Shown here piece by piece: positions 3,596 through 41,734 of a DNA stretch of 41,734 bases. Location: positions 1 through 41,734 of the IMG/VR virus record IMGVR_UViG_3300035670_000494. One strand, 5' to 3'. Made by a program: the position numbers and the translations under genes. Numbering within the stretch: position 1 is the first letter of the stretch; the number at the start of each line of letters is the position of its first letter. The stretch is from a virus. Under the pieces are notes generated by a model. The model was not told the origin of the DNA and searched no databases. It saw nothing but the letters and a program-made list of their open reading frames with translations.

Positions 3596-5076
3596 GTTTC
3601 TGGCGCGAAGTATTCGGCCTTCCGGCCCTTCCGGCGAAAACTGCCGTGCAGAAGCGCAGCGCCTACCATGCCGGGGCTGTCGGGCGGCTTTTTGCTGACT
3701 TTCAGGGGTCATACGGCTCTGCGGATGCGGATTTGCGCGGTGACATCGTGCTTATGCGCAATCGCGCCCGCCAAATGGCCCGCGATGACGTTTACGTAAA
3801 GCGTTTCCTCGAACTGCTCCAGACCAACGTGGTTGGCGACAACGGCATGGTGTTGCAGGTCAAGGCCCGTGACACCAGCGGCGGCATGGACGTTATCGGC
3901 AACAGGATCGTCGAGGAGGCGTGGACCGTCTTTGGCCGCAAGGGAAATTGCACTGCCGATGGCCTCATGTCGTGGGTTGACCTCCAGAACTACGTGATCC
4001 GCACGGTTGCCCGCGATGGAGAGGCGTTCCTGCAAGTCATTCGCAACAAGTCGTTCGCGCATGGCATCGCCTTCCATCCGTTCGAGGCTGATCTGGTGGA
4101 CGAGGGCAAGACTGAGCGCGCCCGGAGCGGCAACGAGATTCGCATGGGCGTGGAGGTTGACCAGTATCAGCGCCCGGTCGCCTTCTATGTGCGCAAAAAG
4201 CACCCTGGCGATACTCAGTTTACCTCCGTCACCAGCAATGAGAGCGTCCGGGTTGACGCCAAGGACATTCTGCATATCTACCGCCCGCTCCGGGCTGGGC
4301 AGACGCGCGGGGAGACGTGGCTCCATGCCGCTCTGAGCCAGATAAAGATGCTCAACGCCCACCGCGAGGCCGAACTGGTCGCTTCGCGCATGGCGGCGAG
4401 CAAGATGGGCTTCTTTACGTCCGAATCCGGCGAGGACATGCCCGCCGATGACGTAGACAATGGCGTTCCCATCATCGACGCGGAGCCTGGGACGTTCCAC
4501 CAGCTTCCGGCTGGCGTGGACTTCAAGGCGTTCGATCCGAACCACCCGGCGACTGCCTTCGCGGAGTTCCAGAAGAATATTCTGCGCGGCACCGCCAGCG
4601 GCCTCGGCGTGTCCTATGCCAGCCTTTCTGGCGACCTGTCTGACACCTCGTATTCGTCGGTTCGCCAGGGCGCGCTTGAGGAGCGGGACCACTACCGCCT
4701 GCTCCAGAAGTTCGCGCTGGAGCACTTCATTGAGCGCGCCTATGCGATCTGGCTGCGGCACGTGATGGAGTTCGGCTACATCAATCTGCCGGTCACGAAG
4801 TTCGACAAGTTCTTTGTCGCCTCGACGTTCCGCGCTCGCGGGTGGCAGTGGGTTGACCCCCAGAAAGAGATTTCGGCGGCTGGCGAGGCTATGCACCTTG
4901 GCATCATGTCGCCGCAGGACGTTTCGGCGCAGTATGGCCGTGACTTTGAGGAAACGCAGAGCCAGTGGCAGCGCGACATCGAAACGGCCAAAAACTACGG
5001 CAACGAACTGGCGTTTGGGCCTTTCGGAGGCAGCGAACAAACCAAGGGGGTGACAGAAAATGTCCCAGCAGAGTGA
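3592..5076 (+). CDS. Portal protein, lambda family
   Basis: A 494-residue portal that forms the dodecameric DNA channel at the capsid vertex. Order, length and sequence match lambda-type portals: a long N-terminal region with NRARQMARDDVYVKRFLELL, a central wing with DILHIYRPLRAGQTRG, and a C-terminal clip/crown with GVSYASLSGDLSDTSYSSVRQG, a segment highly typical of this family. It overlaps the upstream gene by ATGA and the downstream protease-capsid gene by 17 bases. Confidence 0.92.
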   Translation: MSFWREVFGLPALPAKTAVQKRSAYHAGAVGRLFADFQGSYGSADADLRGDIVLMRNRARQMARDDVYVKRFLELLQTNVVGDNGMVLQVKARDTSGGMDVIGNRIVEEAWTVFGRKGNCTADGLMSWVDLQNYVIRTVARDGEAFLQVIRNKSFAHGIAFHPFEADLVDEGKTERARSGNEIRMGVEVDQYQRPVAFYVRKKHPGDTQFTSVTSNESVRVDAKDILHIYRPLRAGQTRGETWLHAALSQIKMLNAHREAELVASRMAASKMGFFTSESGEDMPADDVDNGVPIIDAEPGTFHQLPAGVDFKAFDPNHPATAFAEFQKNILRGTASGLGVSYASLSGDLSDTSYSSVRQGALEERDHYRLLQKFALEHFIERAYAIWLRHVMEFGYINLPVTKFDKFFVASTFRARGWQWVDPQKEISAAGEAMHLGIMSPQDVSAQYGRDFEETQSQWQRDIETAKNYGNELAFGPFGGSEQTKGVTENVPAE

Positions 5077-23734: not shown

Positions 23735-24198
23735 GTGTTGTCTCCTAGGGCTTGGCGGAAGTGGTATAGATACTCGTCAAGGAGCGGCCACATTCCGGTT
23801 TTGGGATCGCCGTTCTTGCCCAAAGCATCACGATCAACATGGGCCTCAATTATGCCGATCGCATGGCCCAAAGCCTCCCGCAACCGCTCCACCTCCGCGC
23901 GCAGGGCTTCGATGCGGTCGGCTAAATCTAGCAATTCTTCGTGATGAACCGGCATTTTTTCCTTAATGCGCCAGAATAAATCCGCCAGTTCTCCATCATC
24001 CCCGGTAGCGCAAAGGGTGGGTGTGTCAGAAACCCAGCCATTTTCTGCAATAAGTGGTTCAGCTTTGTCAAAAGGCTCCCACGCCCATTTGCGGATGGTG
24101 CCAATCTCACTAAACTGGACATAGATCGTGCGCGGCTGCTGAACATCTGCGCTAGTTACATGGCCTAGGGCTTCGGTTGTGTTACTGGTCACGTCCAT
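23731..24198 (-). CDS. Hypothetical protein with coiled-coil C-terminus
   Basis: A 155-residue protein. ATG 24198 (MDVTSNTTE) gives a 17-base overlap with the upstream gene; ATG 24252 is also possible but gives a 71-base overlap. LADRIEALRAEVERLREALG is a clear coiled coil near residue 105. The C-terminal QALGDNT matches the end of the 24847 gene (AALGDNT), suggesting related tails. Confidence 0.55.
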   Translation of the reverse strand: MDVTSNTTEALGHVTSADVQQPRTIYVQFSEIGTIRKWAWEPFDKAEPLIAENGWVSDTPTLCATGDDGELADLFWRIKEKMPVHHEELLDLADRIEALRAEVERLREALGHAIGIIEAHVDRDALGKNGDPKTGMWPLLDEYLYHFRQALGDNT

Positions 24199-24850
24199 CT
24201 CCAAGTCTTTGACGAATGTCCGCTGCAACCGTCTGAGCGAGGTCTTCACCATCCTCGTGGCCCCGGATCATTGCGCTTAGGGCATTCTCTGCGTCGACCA
24301 GCAGCCCCGTCAATTCAGACAGGTTGTGCTCTTGCTTTGCCTGTTCTGCGGCGGCAGCAAGCGGCAGTCTGGCCCACCCCTCGAACCAATCAGCCGAAAC
24401 CCCAAAGCCCGGAAACAGCGACCAATCTCCCGGACCAACATAATGCGTGACAAACCAGCGTCCGCCATAGCTATAAAAAGGGTCGTCCTTTTGTCGCGGT
24501 AGCGTTTTGGCTAAAATGTGCACTCCATTCTGCGGAGCACTGTCCATCGGTAAAATCTGTGTTAGACCCTCGGTATGGCGAGGGACGAGGTGGTGCGCCT
24601 TACGCTGGGCTTCGATGGTGTCGGCGTCGGCGTCGGCGCGGCAGTTCCATGCTGCAATTGCTTCGGCTTCAAGGCTCGGCAAGTCGGATTGCATGTGAAC
24701 GTCTTGATCGACCATCACATTCGCGCCGACAGCATCGCATTCACCGCACTGAATTGTGATGGTGTCGCAGTCGGCATCGAATGGCATAATGACGGGATAC
24801 AATCGCGCCTCACCCCCACAAAACGGACACGGTTTCAGTTCCTCGGTCAT
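24182..24850 (-). CDS. Lar-like restriction alleviation protein with DUF551-like domain
   Basis: A 222-residue protein. The first 75 residues match the Lar/restriction-alleviation zinc ribbon: LKPCPFCGGEA with C8 and C11, then C35 and C38, and an EAIAAWNCRAD end. Lar proteins modulate host type I restriction. Residues about 98-165 (LPMDSAPQNGVHILAK, then WFEGWARLPLAA) resemble a DUF551-like domain, giving an apparent fusion. The C-terminal 50 residues are helical. ATGA-type overlap with the upstream gene. Confidence 0.68.
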   Translation of the reverse strand: MTEELKPCPFCGGEARLYPVIMPFDADCDTITIQCGECDAVGANVMVDQDVHMQSDLPSLEAEAIAAWNCRADADADTIEAQRKAHHLVPRHTEGLTQILPMDSAPQNGVHILAKTLPRQKDDPFYSYGGRWFVTHYVGPGDWSLFPGFGVSADWFEGWARLPLAAAAEQAKQEHNLSELTGLLVDAENALSAMIRGHEDGEDLAQTVAADIRQRLGDGRDQ

Positions 24851-25200: not shown

Positions 25201-25363
25201 GGGGGGTGTCCTTGGGTTGAAATTCGCCGCAGAGATGGCTTGGCGCGGTGCCGACGGGGGCCGGAAATCGGAAGCACGTAAAACCTGTGGTCCAGCGATC
25301 ATCGAACGGATCGAAGAAGTTTCTCGCCCACCACCGGCACCGCTCACACTTGTTCGTTTCCAT
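25193..25363 (-). CDS. Small Cys-rich protein
   Basis: A 56-residue gene beginning METNKCERCRWWARNFFD and containing Cys at C6, C9, about 34 and about 49. CxxC followed by two spaced Cys is compatible with a zinc or iron site. ATG 25363 follows a GGGGGGAG stretch, overlaps the upstream stop by TGATG, and its end overlaps the next start. These features make it convincing despite its size. Confidence 0.6.
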   Translation of the reverse strand: METNKCERCRWWARNFFDPFDDRWTTGFTCFRFPAPVGTAPSHLCGEFQPKDTPHE

Positions 25364-25680
25364 CACTCCCCCCTCGCCTTAGCGATAACCTGGCTGTCAT
25401 TCATCAGAGTGTCCTTCGCCTCATCAAACTTGATAGCGAACCAGTCGTTAGCGTCAAGCAGATAATTGGCCTCGCGGACGCCATGGCCGACAGTGCCGTG
25501 ATCCCGGCCAATCATTCGGCCAACTGCGGCAGCGCCGTAGCCCAGGTCATGCAGAATCTTGTAAAGCGCAAAGCGCGGAACGGTATAAAGCCGCTCTCGG
25601 CTACGCCCCAGAATGTCATCCTCGCTCACCAGGAACGAGGAAGCAACCGCCTCAACGGCCCTCTTGGCTATCGGGTGCAT
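25363..25680 (-). CDS. Stand-alone DnaA domain IV-like protein
   Basis: A 105-residue protein from ATG 25680 (GAGGAG eight bases upstream). Residues 36-70 (FALYKILHDLGYGAAAVGRM and then GRDHGTVGHG) match the DnaA-box-binding helix-turn-helix, including its signature motif. No ATPase domain is present, so it could bind host or phage DnaA boxes as a competitor, a replication-start factor or a regulator. ATG 25710 is an alternative start. Confidence 0.75.
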   Translation of the reverse strand: MHPIAKRAVEAVASSFLVSEDDILGRSRERLYTVPRFALYKILHDLGYGAAAVGRMIGRDHGTVGHGVREANYLLDANDWFAIKFDEAKDTLMNDSQVIAKARGE

Positions 25681-25777
25681 TCCGGCGCTCCTCACAAAAC
25701 CTCGACCCATCGGCTCGCCGCAGCGGCCAGGCGGAGTCTTTCGACTTTCGGTAGCGGTCTTTCGTGCAGTGCTTCAT
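25652..25777 (-). CDS. Small basic protein
   Basis: A 41-residue Arg/Lys-rich gene (MKHCTKDRYRKSKDS) with a strong TGGAGG six bases before ATG 25777. It overlaps the DnaA-like gene start by 29 bases. The charge suggests nucleic-acid binding. It fills the otherwise empty 25680-25805 gap. Confidence 0.5.
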   Translation of the reverse strand: MKHCTKDRYRKSKDSAWPLRRADGSRFCEERRNAPDSQEGR

Positions 25778-38092: not shown

Positions 38093-38794
38093 ATGCCCCT
38101 CGCCCTCAAAGTTGAAACCGACTTCGACACGAAGCTACAGCGTCTCGCCCAGATGCCAGACCTGATTGTCAAGTCGGTGCGCGGGGCGCTGTCTGACACG
38201 GTGGACGATCTGCATACCCGCGAGACTATGGAGATGGAGCAGGTTTTCGACCGGCCCACTCCATACGTCAAGCGAGGGCTTAAGAAGCGATACCCTGGCA
38301 AGGAAGGGGTGCTGCGGGCTGGGATTTACTTCGAGGAGTGGCCGTTCGGGCATAGCCCAGCCGACATTGTGGCCCCACATGTGTTTGGTGGGCCTCGCCG
38401 CATGAAGGGGTCGGAGCGTAAGCTGGGTGGTCACTGGACCGTGATGGCGCAGGGCTACCCGCGTAACCAGAATGGCAACATTCCCGGTGGGCGCTATACC
38501 CAGATGCTCAACGAGGTCGGCGCGCTGCTGGACGTTCCGACGAAAAAGCGAACCGCTGCCGAAAAGCGAGCAGCGCGGGGCTGGCAGTTTTTCATTGTGC
38601 GCAATGAGGCTGGCGATCCGATTGGTGTGGCAGAGAAGCGTGGACGCACTGGCGTCAAGATGATGCTGGCCTTTACCCGGCAGCCGAACTACCAGAAGCG
38701 GTTTCAGTATTTCGAGGTGGCACAACGCCAGGTGGCGTATTCGCTGCCGCTTCATTTTAGCCGTATCGTGAACAGGTATATGTCGCGGTTGTAG
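38093..38794 (+). CDS. Possible minor tail protein, gpZ-like
   Basis: A 233-residue basic protein. The N-terminal part (KLQRLAQMPDLIVKSVRGAL, then HTRETMEMEQVFDRPTPYVKRGLKKRYP) follows the design of lambda gpZ-type tail-joining proteins: a leading helix, then a basic region before a beta domain. The C-terminal SLPLHFSRIVNRYMSRL is a similar end helix. If correct, it is displaced from the structural module. The name is tentative. Confidence 0.4.
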   Translation: MPLALKVETDFDTKLQRLAQMPDLIVKSVRGALSDTVDDLHTRETMEMEQVFDRPTPYVKRGLKKRYPGKEGVLRAGIYFEEWPFGHSPADIVAPHVFGGPRRMKGSERKLGGHWTVMAQGYPRNQNGNIPGGRYTQMLNEVGALLDVPTKKRTAAEKRAARGWQFFIVRNEAGDPIGVAEKRGRTGVKMMLAFTRQPNYQKRFQYFEVAQRQVAYSLPLHFSRIVNRYMSRL

Positions 38795-38840
38795 AAGGGT
38801 CCACGGGGTCACAGAAGGGTCCACGCAGGCGTAGGGTCCA
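38793..38840 (+). repeat. Direct repeats AGAAGGGTCCACG
   Basis: AGAAGGGTCCACG occurs at 38793-38805 and 38813-38825 (20-base period), and a third GGGTCCA at 38834-38840. A fourth GGGTCCA lies at 39127-39133. This repeated motif upstream of a TTGACA box may be an activator or initiator site. Confidence 0.5.
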
Positions 38841-38842
38841 TA

Positions 38843-38872
38843 TTGACAGGGGGTGGGTAGCGTGATACCCCC
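38843..38872 (+). promoter_or_regulatory. Possible regulated promoter with embedded operator
   Basis: TTGACA (38843-38848) is followed after 17 bases by a poor -10 (TACCCC). GGGGGT (38849-38854) and ACCCCC (38867-38872) form an inverted repeat that fills the space between, and GGGTA/TACCC is nested inside it. An operator-controlled or activator-dependent promoter is one reading. Confidence 0.35.
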
Positions 38873-38899
38873 ATCTCATTAAAACTGACTGATGAGATG
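38872..38899 (+). repeat. 8-bp inverted repeat in a leader
   Basis: CATCTCAT and ATGAGATG flank 12 bases, ending six bases before ATG 38905. In RNA it would be a hairpin beside the start; in DNA it could be a dimer site. Confidence 0.5.
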
Positions 38900-38904
38900 C
38901 TACC

Positions 38905-39099
38905 ATGAATGACAATCTCCCAGCCGTCGAGGGTCCGCGCCACGCTGAGGCTGTGGCTTTGCTGAATGACCTATACCTGATCCTGCGCAACATGGGGGTC
39001 GAAGGCGTCGATGTGATCGGCGCTGATGGCGAGCCGGTGTATCAGCCTGCGTTCTGGGCAGGGCAATGCGCGCGAGTGCTGGGCATCAAAATGATGTGA
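38905..39099 (+). CDS. Small hypothetical protein
   Basis: A 64-residue protein (MNDNLPAVEGPRHAEAVALL) with GC-rich third positions like neighbouring genes. It has no strong ribosome site. It sits in a repeat-rich region. Function is unknown. Confidence 0.5.
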   Translation: MNDNLPAVEGPRHAEAVALLNDLYLILRNMGVEGVDVIGADGEPVYQPAFWAGQCARVLGIKMM

Positions 39100-39102
39100 T
39101 GG

Positions 39103-39151
39103 ATTTTTGGCTCGGAAAGCGTAGCGGGGTCCAATTTTTGCTTCGGAAAGC
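39103..39151 (+). repeat. Degenerate tandem 18-base repeat
   Basis: ATTTTTGGCTCGGAAAGC (39103-39120) recurs as ATTTTTGCTTCGGAAAGC (39134-39151), separated by 13 bases that include GGGTCCA. Part of the control region. Confidence 0.5.
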
Positions 39152-39153
39152 AC

Positions 39154-39184
39154 ATGGGGGTGGGTGCCGCCCCATTACCCCCAT
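39154..39184. repeat. Inverted repeat ATGGGGGT/ACCCCCAT
   Basis: 8-base arms around 15 bases. The GGGGGTGGGT start is shared with the inverted repeat at 38849. A second copy of the same operator-like element is likely. Confidence 0.5.
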
Positions 39185-39224
39185 ACGTTAAATAGCCGGG
39201 GGGTTACGTTAAATAGCCGGGGGG
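39185..39224 (+). repeat. Perfect 19-base tandem repeat
   Basis: ACGTTAAATAGCCGGGGGG at 39185-39203 and again at 39206-39224, with a 21-base (two helical turns) period. AT-rich start and G-run end. A paired protein site or iteron. Confidence 0.75.
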
Positions 39225-39230
39225 CCATTT

Positions 39231-39279
39231 CGTTCCACCCCCGTTCCACTTTCGTTCCAGTTCCGTTCCGTCCGTTCAG
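39231..39279 (+). repeat. CGTTCCA iterons with 11-base period
   Basis: CGTTCCA begins at 39231, 39242 and 39253; CGTTCCG at 39264 and CGTTCAG at 39273. Spacing of 11, 11, 11 and 9 bases places copies on one face of the helix. CCACTTTC (39246-39253) also pairs with GAAAGTGG at 39280-39287. Together with the tandem repeat next to it, this is the better of two origin candidates. Confidence 0.65.
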
Positions 39280-39305
39280 GAAAGTGGCTTGGAATGTGAA
39301 CGAAT

Positions 39306-39339
39306 GTCCGCCAGAGGCTTTTAACGGCACCTGGCGGAC
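39306..39339. repeat. 9-bp inverted repeat
   Basis: GTCCGCCAG and CTGGCGGAC flank 16 bases. It lies just after the iterons. No T tract follows. Confidence 0.5.
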
Positions 39340-39366
39340 TCCCCCGACGGGATGCAGCTTCAATAC

Positions 39367-39428
39367 CGCCAGTATATAGAGCCACACCACGTCACCTTGT
39401 CGTGACTGGCGCATTTTTTCATTTTTCC
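39367..39428 (+). terminator. Possible terminator before the right-end genes
   Basis: CGCCAGT (39367-39373) and ACTGGCG (39405-39411) form a 7-bp stem, followed by CATTTTTTCATTTTTCC. A nested GTCAC/GTGAC alternative exists. The U-rich tail supports termination on the + strand. Confidence 0.45.
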
Positions 39429-39489
39429 GCTTGACGCGACAAAATGGCGGGTTTAGGGAGGGGGTATTGAAACGGATGGAGTAAGTGAG

Positions 39490-39761: not shown

Positions 39762-40295
39762 ATGCCCCGCACAATTGAAATTACCGCTTATCGGTTTGAC
39801 GAATTGAGCGACCGCGCAAAGGAGCGTGCGCGGGATTGGTATAGGGAAGGCGACACTTGGGGCTGGAGTGATGAATACTGGCAATCTGCCCGGGCCTTTG
39901 CTGCCATTGCGCCAATGGATATTTGGGAGGCGGACTATTCGCGCGGCGATGTTTCTGTGCGATGGGCTGGCGACGATGAGGTCGCAGAATTGACCGGCCT
40001 TCGCGCTTGGAAATGGCTTGCTAACAATGGTTGGTTTGACCTTGCCGCCAAGAACATCCAAGGCGATTGCACCTTGACCGGCTTTTGCGGCGATTGCGAC
40101 CTGTTTGATCCGATTGCACAATACGCCAAGAATCCGCTTCGTGTGCCGGAATTGGAGCAAGTTTTCCGCGAATGCTATTATTCATGGGTGCATGCTGCGC
40201 GCGCCGATATGGAGCATAGCTATTCCGATGAATCCGTTGATGAAAGCATTCGTATCAATGAATACGAATTTGACGCTGAGGGGAATCGACTGTGA
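39762..40295 (+). CDS. Hypothetical protein of a common phage family
   Basis: A 177-residue acidic protein beginning MPRTIEITAYRFDELSDRAK, a start shared by many phage hypothetical proteins (a short beta strand followed by the FDELSDRAKERARDWY helix). Trp- and Asp-rich. AGAGGAATT precedes ATG 39762. I recognise the family but know no function. Confidence 0.65.
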   Translation: MPRTIEITAYRFDELSDRAKERARDWYREGDTWGWSDEYWQSARAFAAIAPMDIWEADYSRGDVSVRWAGDDEVAELTGLRAWKWLANNGWFDLAAKNIQGDCTLTGFCGDCDLFDPIAQYAKNPLRVPELEQVFRECYYSWVHAARADMEHSYSDESVDESIRINEYEFDAEGNRL

Positions 40296-40366
40296 ACAGC
40301 GAATGGCTTTCCTGCATTATCGGCGGCCTGTTTATGGGCCTTGCTTTTGTTCTTTGCTTTTTTTGA
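40292..40366 (+). CDS. Tiny 24-residue membrane peptide
   Basis: GTG 40292 overlaps the previous stop. The product (SCIIGGLFMGLAFVLCFF core) would span the membrane once. GAGAGGG ahead of the next gene begins at its stop. Its layout matches the 39690 peptide. Confidence 0.4.
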   Translation: MNSEWLSCIIGGLFMGLAFVLCFF

Positions 40367-40379
40367 GAGGGATTTGACC

Positions 40380-41012
40380 ATGTTCACCAACTGTGAATCC
40401 AACGCCGCCTATCTTGCCAGCGCTCTCTGTGAAGCGTTGAAGGACAACGACGAGGCAATCTTTGCATATGATGCAAAGCCGGAAGCAATTGAGACTGAGG
40501 CGCGGGACGGGTTTATCCCCTACACCTCTGGCGGTTGGCATATCTGCTTGCCTGCGGCGCTGTCATATTGCCGGTCTAGCGGCCATGCCCCCGCGCCGCT
40601 GCAAGGAGCTATCAGGGAGGGTGAGCGATTTATTGCTGATGCCTGGGCGGAGCGCTTCCCGGAACGTCCCGGCCTGATTGACTGCATTTGCGACGAAAGT
40701 TGCGAATGGCAGGCAGAGGCAGAGGAATGGGAATCCGAAGCATGGATTAACGACGAGGATTGCTATTTCTGGAAGGCGCAAGTTATGTTCCTAGGCCCGC
40801 TTGACCAAGGCAATGAAACAGGCAGGGCCGAGGTCTATATTGACGCATATCTCAATACAGACCTGAATTATGGCCGAGACTATATCGATTGGGCTGGCGG
40901 CAATCAGACGCATGGCAATTTCAAGCGGACAATCCCTGCGGATCAATTTGCGGCCATGACCGAGGATGATCTTGACGCTATCGTGCAGGAAGCGGTGGAG
41001 TCGCTGCCATGA
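40380..41012 (+). CDS. Acidic hypothetical protein
   Basis: A 210-residue very acidic protein from ATG 40380 (GAGAGGG upstream). It has several Cys and Trp residues (LIDCICDESCEWQAEAEEWE), and its acidity could mimic DNA or bind metal. It overlaps the XRE gene by ATGA. No family is recognised. Confidence 0.6.
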   Translation: MFTNCESNAAYLASALCEALKDNDEAIFAYDAKPEAIETEARDGFIPYTSGGWHICLPAALSYCRSSGHAPAPLQGAIREGERFIADAWAERFPERPGLIDCICDESCEWQAEAEEWESEAWINDEDCYFWKAQVMFLGPLDQGNETGRAEVYIDAYLNTDLNYGRDYIDWAGGNQTHGNFKRTIPADQFAAMTEDDLDAIVQEAVESLP

Positions 41013-41170
41013 ACCAGATCAAAGCAACCCGCACCCGCCTAGCCATAACGCAAGAGGAAATGGCCGATAGGCTTGGAATCAGCACAAGACAGTTGCAGCG
41101 CCTGGAAGCTGGCGCTAATGTGAAGCGGCCAATTCGCTTGGCACTTATGATGATTGAGAGGAATGGATGA
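41009..41170 (+). CDS. XRE-family DNA-binding protein
   Basis: A 53-residue single-domain repressor-type protein. ITQEEMADRLGISTRQLQRL at 13-32 is a textbook XRE helix-turn-helix, followed by the usual EAG. It has no dimerisation or cleavage domain. It likely controls its own cluster. Both ends overlap neighbours. Confidence 0.75.
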   Translation: MNQIKATRTRLAITQEEMADRLGISTRQLQRLEAGANVKRPIRLALMMIERNG

Positions 41171-41439
41171 TGATTATTGTTAGTGAAGCGATTGGCTCCG
41201 CACATTGGGCAAGCTATCTAATCAATGACGACTCAAGCGGACTCGATGAACGCGATATTGCGCTGTGCGATGCATGGCAGGAATCGCTCTCTCCTGCCTA
41301 TGTGGTTTGCATCAAGGATTGCGAGGAAACCGGGGAACCGGAGGAACCGTGGTTCACTTGGTCTTATGATCTATACACTGGCGACCCTGATGTCAGTGGC
41401 GGAAGCTGTCTCACCTATATCTTGCATGAGGTGCGGTAG
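41167..41439 (+). CDS. DUF6926-like protein
   Basis: A 90-residue acidic protein starting MMIIVSEAIGSAHWASYLIN, with DERDIALCDAW. The pattern (YLIND then L(D)xxDIALCDAW) resembles DUF6926, a short phage family of unknown role. ATG 41167 overlaps the upstream stop by ATGA. Confidence 0.55.
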   Translation: MMIIVSEAIGSAHWASYLINDDSSGLDERDIALCDAWQESLSPAYVVCIKDCEETGEPEEPWFTWSYDLYTGDPDVSGGSCLTYILHEVR

Positions 41440-41722
41440 GGAGGCAATAGCATAGCATCACACCACACCTAGAGATTGGCCTGGCCTAGCGCCGGGCTTT
41501 TCTTTGCCTGCTATCCTGGCAGGCCATGCATGTTTCGTGCCAAACGCCTAGATGGTTTCAATGGAAGCAACGTGCCCATAGAGGCCCGCTGAGCGCATGG
41601 CTTGGCTTTGGCTGTCTAGCACCATGGCATTGACTAGACCCTATCCAGCGGCCTCCCCTGGGCGCCCTAGGGGCGCTCTAGGGCCGGGGCGCATGGGTCC
41701 TTCCGGGCGGGTGGAGCCTGCG
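41440..41722. other. Right-end gene-free region flanking cos
   Basis: No gene is seen in about 280 bases. GCGCCC/GGGCGC around TAG (41662-41676) is a short palindrome, and CTAGGG-type runs are frequent. This is where terminase binding (cosB/cosQ-like) sites could lie on the left of the joined cos site. Confidence 0.45.
41479..41505 (+). terminator. Rho-independent terminator after the last gene
   Basis: GCCTGGC and GCCGGGC (7 bp, one G-U) around CTAGC, followed by TTTTCTTT. It ends right-end transcription about 40 bases after the last gene. Confidence 0.65.
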
Positions 41723-41734
41723 GGTGATTCGGAC
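41723..41734. repeat. Right terminal repeat, probable cos end
   Basis: Exact copy of bases 1-12. Together with the left copy it marks the window as a complete linear genome whose ends can anneal. See the left copy for interpretation. Confidence 0.7.

Follow-up and report, generated by a model that had tools for sequence, protein, structure and literature searches.

The stretch of DNA analysed here (the window) is an entire virus record, IMGVR_UViG_3300035670_000494, of 41,734 bases. Its genes include those for terminase, portal, capsid and a siphophage tail. The minus strand bears a block for recombination and helicase functions, and a rightward operon codes for a Toprim-AAA primase, a product resembling nucleotide kinases and a minor tail protein. 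Both ends of the record carry the same 12-bp repeat, GGTGATTCGGAC (1-12 and, for the right copy, 41723-41734), and GGGTRATTMGGACC is conserved in relatives immediately upstream of terS; one relative, G003, terminates with the matching 12 bp, and another, L009, starts exactly at GGGTRATTMGGACC. The repeat is likely a 12-nt cohesive end (cos), and the genome is likely complete and linear. Integrase, serine recombinase and S24 repressor domains were not found in the 18 related records, and integrase is absent in almost all phages of the CRP-822 type, which are related to this one (PMC12629253), so that a lysogeny switch is not expected. The phage is an uncultivated, probably virulent siphophage. 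An alphaproteobacterial host is plausible, as its closest cultured TerL relatives are roseophages and one gene of the block described below matches a Citromicrobium phage at the DNA level. The family-library scans, which covered part of the window ORFs, also identified a Lar-like restriction alleviation domain encoded at 24182-24850 on the minus strand.

All features of the repeat region are on the plus strand. Its upstream neighbor is the minor tail protein gene (38093-38794; phrog_1924, E 6.8e-41; 82% identical in record L002). Relative to the cohesive ends, the repeat region is internal, about 2.5 kb from the right one, and thus distinct from cos; comparison with homologous loci identifies it as the head of a block of genes bounded by the minor-tail operon and cos. 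A sequence-only reading had treated 38793-39287 as a single regulatory region, but 38905-39099 is a conserved gene coding for a 64-aa protein (p64), and the non-coding part extends from about 39100 to 39480. By collecting related loci through TerL, tail and primase alignment scans and one DNA pattern, we found p64 homologues at more than 30 loci, between which accessory genes appear and vanish around it. The p64 protein has an invariant MNDN start, W and C and gave no Pfam, PHROG or PDB-fold match; its predicted model (pLDDT 85) consists of a long helix, short strands and a second helix. A role of p64 as a DNA binder was considered and set aside, as this confident model gave no fold match.

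Upstream of p64 are three (A)GGGTCCA direct repeats (38796-38840), with copies in L002, L010, L012 and L088, then TTGACA followed by the inverted repeat GGGGGTGGGT and ACCCCC (38843-38872), and a 7-bp inverted repeat, ATCTCAT/ATGAGAT (38873-38898), that L002 does not have. The TTGACA, which is kept in L002, is a possible candidate promoter for p64. The GGGTCCA copies stand after the 64-aa gene in L010, L012 and L088; together with GGGGGTGGG, the repeats (38796-38872 in the window) make up a unit that shifts position relative to that gene between lineages. No match to the GGGTCCA module was found in PLSDB.

Every repeat class named in the sequence-only reading is present, with corrections of count, length and extent. 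The 20-nt repeat is perfect, at 39184-39203 and 39205-39224 with a period of 21, rather than 19 nt long. Four of the five claimed CGTTCC copies are at 39231, 39242, 39253 and 39264, in steps of 11, 11 and 11; the fifth unit, at 39274 after a step of 9, is GTTC only. Both related inverted repeats were confirmed, as GGGGGTGGGT occurs at 38849 and 39156, each time followed by ACCCCC, and nowhere else in the window. GGGTCCA was found at 38797, 38817, 38834 and 39127, but the last copy is part of a 31-bp tandem repeat (39103-39161) that had not been reported, and a near copy at 38930 falls within a coding sequence. Three of the five tandem arrays of the 41.7-kb genome fall within 39103-39269. When the 495-bp region was shuffled 2,000 times under a first-order Markov model, four CGTTCC were never reached, nor were two GGGGGTGGGT or a 19-bp copy at 21 bp, and three GGGTCCA arose in 0.05% of the shuffles; four GTTC at exact 11-bp steps were found in 0 of 300 first-order shuffles of the window. 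Thus, the repeat clusters are real and non-random. The near relative L002 (TerL 91% identical) keeps the GTTC array, the TATATAGAGCC box and TTGACGCGAYAAAATGRCGGGTYTAGGG.

TTTGSYCCATAAATCGTATGGGGG, an iteron of about 25 nt, follows the 64-aa gene at most loci, either directly or after inserted genes, in two to four copies that are all on the coding strand. Of 18 related records, 16 have the iteron, at a single locus and on a single strand, and no good copies occur elsewhere in these genomes. Its core of 15 bp mostly reaches 1.4 to 1.8 bits per position over 54 copies, with the short-motif scores and E-values being descriptive and the loci non-independent. When the window was scanned with the weight matrix built from these 54 copies, to which it had contributed none, only two sites exceeded 9 bits: diverged copies at 39106-39130 (15.3 bits, the best in the whole window) and 39137-39161 (14.4 bits). 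The second is overlapped by the downstream GGGGGTGGGT...ACCCCC inverted repeat (39156-39182), at whose position L002 has a similar GC-rich inverted repeat. The window iterons carry CGGAAAGC where those of relatives have CATAAATC, and those of L020 do likewise, indicating that the motif has shifted in this lineage. The last iteron of relatives is G-rich (CCATAAACCGAGGGGGGG); from its position and partial likeness, the 20-nt repeat that the window has at that place may be the positional equivalent. In L103, G001, G004 and G007, some iterons end in CCCC or mixed G/C instead of GGGG (TATGCCCC, TATGGCCC), a swap that is hard to explain.

Several candidate identities of the iteron were rejected. An RNA hairpin or dyad was discarded because the arms vary independently, with one compensatory change among 46 distinct copies, and an Rfam search gave no match. 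Plasmid iterons were discounted as PLSDB gave chance-level matches only (E 4), and a host-genome site because the single 18-mer match in GTDB genome contigs is below random expectation, by our estimate. A TerL search of genome contigs yielded no confirmed relative, and our literature search for the iteron returned nothing.

The stretch between the iterons and the promoter is lineage-specific. In the window, it contains the GTTC array (39231-39277), whose steps of 11, 11, 11 and 9 amount to three overlapping GTTC-N7-GTTC sites, and the inverted repeat GTTCA-N18-TGAAC (39274-39301), whose arms and spacing are the same in L002, L012, L020 and L088. Arrays of the same kind occur in L002, L010 and L020, the last with expanded GTTCC units, and single GTTC-N7-GTTC sites in L054, L104, L107, L109 and L118. 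Copies of a palindrome, GCAAYANTRTTGC, replace the array downstream of the 64-aa gene in L025, L097, L108, L110, L111, L115, L117 and L118. Helical phasing, as proposed, is seen in the GTTC array, but the iteron spacings of relatives, mostly 19 to 57 bp, are irregular and only weakly phased.

The half-sites and spacing of the array are exactly those of the Caulobacter SOS box, GTTCN7GTTC (PMC9578287, PMC12700426), raising the idea that it is an operator of the host LexA, which in alphaproteobacteria would place the block under SOS-type control and link it to DNA damage. N7 is the favored GTTC-GTTC spacing, at 9 of 31 loci, with other spacings at 0 to 5 loci and 5 reached solely by a spacing of 18, i.e., two steps of 11; the nine loci represent about three lineages. 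The nearest cultured TerL relatives infect Roseobacter, and host LexA is used by other phages (PMC9437464). However, most relatives have no GTTC-N7-GTTC, the array units are all in one orientation with C-rich spacers, and the three boxes overlap each other, unlike known alphaproteobacterial LexA boxes. In addition, a sigma-70 consensus scan of the window, which covers alphaproteobacterial promoters poorly, recognized no promoter overlapping the array; the usual motive for SOS control is missing in a virulent phage without lysogeny genes. LexA control is rather unlikely for the block, and the resemblance is an attractive lead to a merely candidate operator.

Downstream of the array are a conserved box, TATATAGAGCC (39373-39383), kept in L002 and in L088/L094, and a promoter-like sequence, TTGACG-N17-TAGGGA (39431-39459), recognized by alignment to L002. 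The window promoter is below consensus in the sigma-70 scan, with the same poor cover of alphaproteobacterial promoters. The arrangement recurs in relatives, where a TTGAC-N17 promoter with a -10-like element follows an AT-rich box and contains a short palindrome in its spacer (operator D), a similar palindrome lying upstream (operator-like palindrome U, 39388-39404 in the window). In 17 phages, whose promoters were picked by eye before the test, a choice that favors recognizable cases, a phage's own U and D were more alike than those of different phages (mean 8.8 versus 6.4; 0 of 20,000 permutations as high, P < 5e-5). Both palindromes are imperfect in the window, and their resemblance is weak in the window alone. 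As a sequence pattern, this is the signature of paired operators of a putative fast-changing repressor.

Past this promoter come two block genes coding for 177 and 223 aa (39762-41012), a gene for a 53-aa XRE-type helix-turn-helix protein (41009-41170; HTH_3 E 2.3e-7, 31.2 bits versus a curated cut-off of 23) and a DUF6926 gene (41167-41439). A weaker, terminator-like stem (41478-41498), located after the gene that follows XRE, closes the block. Of 19 phages examined, 16 have a perfect-stem terminator at most 231 nt past the XRE gene. Record G001 and L102 represent one phage; in L102, the whole iteron-to-XRE block is enclosed by two near-identical intrinsic terminators (approximately 1912-1939 and 4272-4304, reverse strand), and L021, which does not have the block, retains one copy of that terminator. 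The block thus behaves as an insulated unit that is gained and lost.

The XRE protein was the sole protein family present in all 16 iteron-bearing records and in none of five iteron-lacking ones, some of which are incomplete or only remotely related (the roseophage L123 has 30 kb, and the structural genes of G014 are different ones), the most telling being G012, which is complete, L021 and L036. On the TerL tree, iterons and the XRE gene were gained or lost jointly at least three times; L021 has neither and G001 has both, and their TerL proteins are near-identical. The variation of the XRE recognition helix does not correlate significantly with that of operator D (r 0.23, P 0.08), whereas a correlation of XRE with the iterons survives correction for TerL (r 0.40, P 0.002, based on few diverged lineages). 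XRE may therefore bind the iterons rather than the operators.

The repeat architecture could also suggest a replication origin, as had been proposed, at which an initiator would bind the iterons and the adjacent arrays would aid opening. Iteron origins are known from theta plasmids and phages, e.g., the lambda and P4 origins, and the likeness lies in clustered directional repeats at a single non-coding locus. In the phages analysed here, two to four asymmetric repeats of about 25 nt lie in one orientation a few kilobases from a primase-helicase gene, and proteins with a DnaA C-terminal domain are encoded in 11 of 18 records. In the window, this is a 115-aa protein with the DnaA C-terminal DNA-binding domain (25363-25710, minus strand). 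It was rejected as the iteron binder, since no DnaA-like gene was found in the iteron-bearing G002, G006, G007 and G010. Moreover, three replication modules without relation to each other are found beside the same iterons, namely, a Toprim-AAA primase, a DNA polymerase with a phrog_1156 primase (G001/G005) and an O-like primosomal module (G004), while L021, with a primase 60% identical, has no iteron within its 17 kb. No GC-skew flip was seen; in eight complete genomes, the skew is positive to the left as well as to the right of the site. Unlike the iterons of known origins, those of this family are thus independent of the replication module, irregularly spaced and without a recognized cognate initiator. 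The exchange of unrelated replication genes around persisting iterons, together with the GC skew, makes an origin served by a phage initiator unlikely. No ParA or ParB names were found among the scanned window ORFs, which are part of all ORFs.

In phages such as F10, related minor tail genes are found where the genome ends on the right, which would fit a packaging (cos/pac) or terminase-binding site. We regard such a role as highly improbable and contradicted by the shared 12-bp ends, whose motif is conserved upstream of terS some 2.5 kb from the region, in agreement with the ends of G003 and L009. The clusters might instead be a recombination hot spot or decaying low-complexity repeats without regulatory role, given the gain and loss of accessory genes around p64 and the GTTCC expansion in L020. 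A strict 15-bp core in 54 copies, confined to one locus and strand, requires selection, however, and leaves this explanation very doubtful.

We marginally favor, at little better than even chances, the reading that the region is the cis-regulatory, autoregulated head of an autonomous, variable early block placed between the end of the replication/minor-tail operon and cos-terS. From the anatomy, the conservation, the shared gains and losses of the iterons and the XRE gene, and the U/D resemblance, all of which are observed, we infer each binding event, the early timing and the direction of control. After DNA entry, the host-type promoter at 39431 would transcribe the small block genes, including XRE; the XRE protein would then bind operator D in the promoter spacer and U, about 45 bp upstream, and shut the promoter down. 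The terminator ahead of cos would insulate the late genes. The upstream iterons and GTTC array are 150 to 300 bp from the promoter, a distance that counts against simple repression, and may be bound by at least one additional protein that determines the timing.

The cis-regulatory reading upholds the earlier suggestion of multi-protein control, since several distinct conserved site types precede a promoter with operators, and an XRE protein is encoded within the block itself. It does not extend to the other functions proposed: an origin is not supported, and a direct role as a late-gene switch is less likely, as the nearest promoter serves small genes and a terminator precedes cos and terS. 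The closest known counterparts are autoregulated phage operator-promoter regions of the XRE/Cro type, in which a small XRE protein is likewise encoded in the unit that it probably controls, with repeated, lineage-specific operators at the promoter. Here, in contrast, the protein is a single 53-aa domain in a genome without integrase or S24-type repressor, and the upstream iteron cluster has no known counterpart. The CRP-822-type roseophages have TerL proteins 57 to 61% identical to that of this phage and a similar head-tail gene order; one of them, CRP-821, has a 30-kb genome with no p64, iteron or XRE match.

Searches of annotated phage and plasmid collections and of the literature did not find the iteron, and the control region seems previously undescribed. 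Dozens of related phages retain clusters of the repeat words at the same place. A more speculative and improbable extension is that these are terminator-insulated blocks exchanged between the tail genes and cos of virulent alphaproteobacteria phages, each with a control region of its own headed by iterons and a minimal XRE regulator of 53 aa, in which the iteron represents a new class of control site read by a conserved factor, with host LexA boxes added in some lineages to sense DNA damage. The locus would provide a large set of uncultivated phages with a shared control site, defined by a strict 15-bp core, one place per genome and one tiny regulator gene. Two questions thereby become testable: which protein reads the iteron, and whether virulent alphaproteobacteria phages tap the host SOS system.
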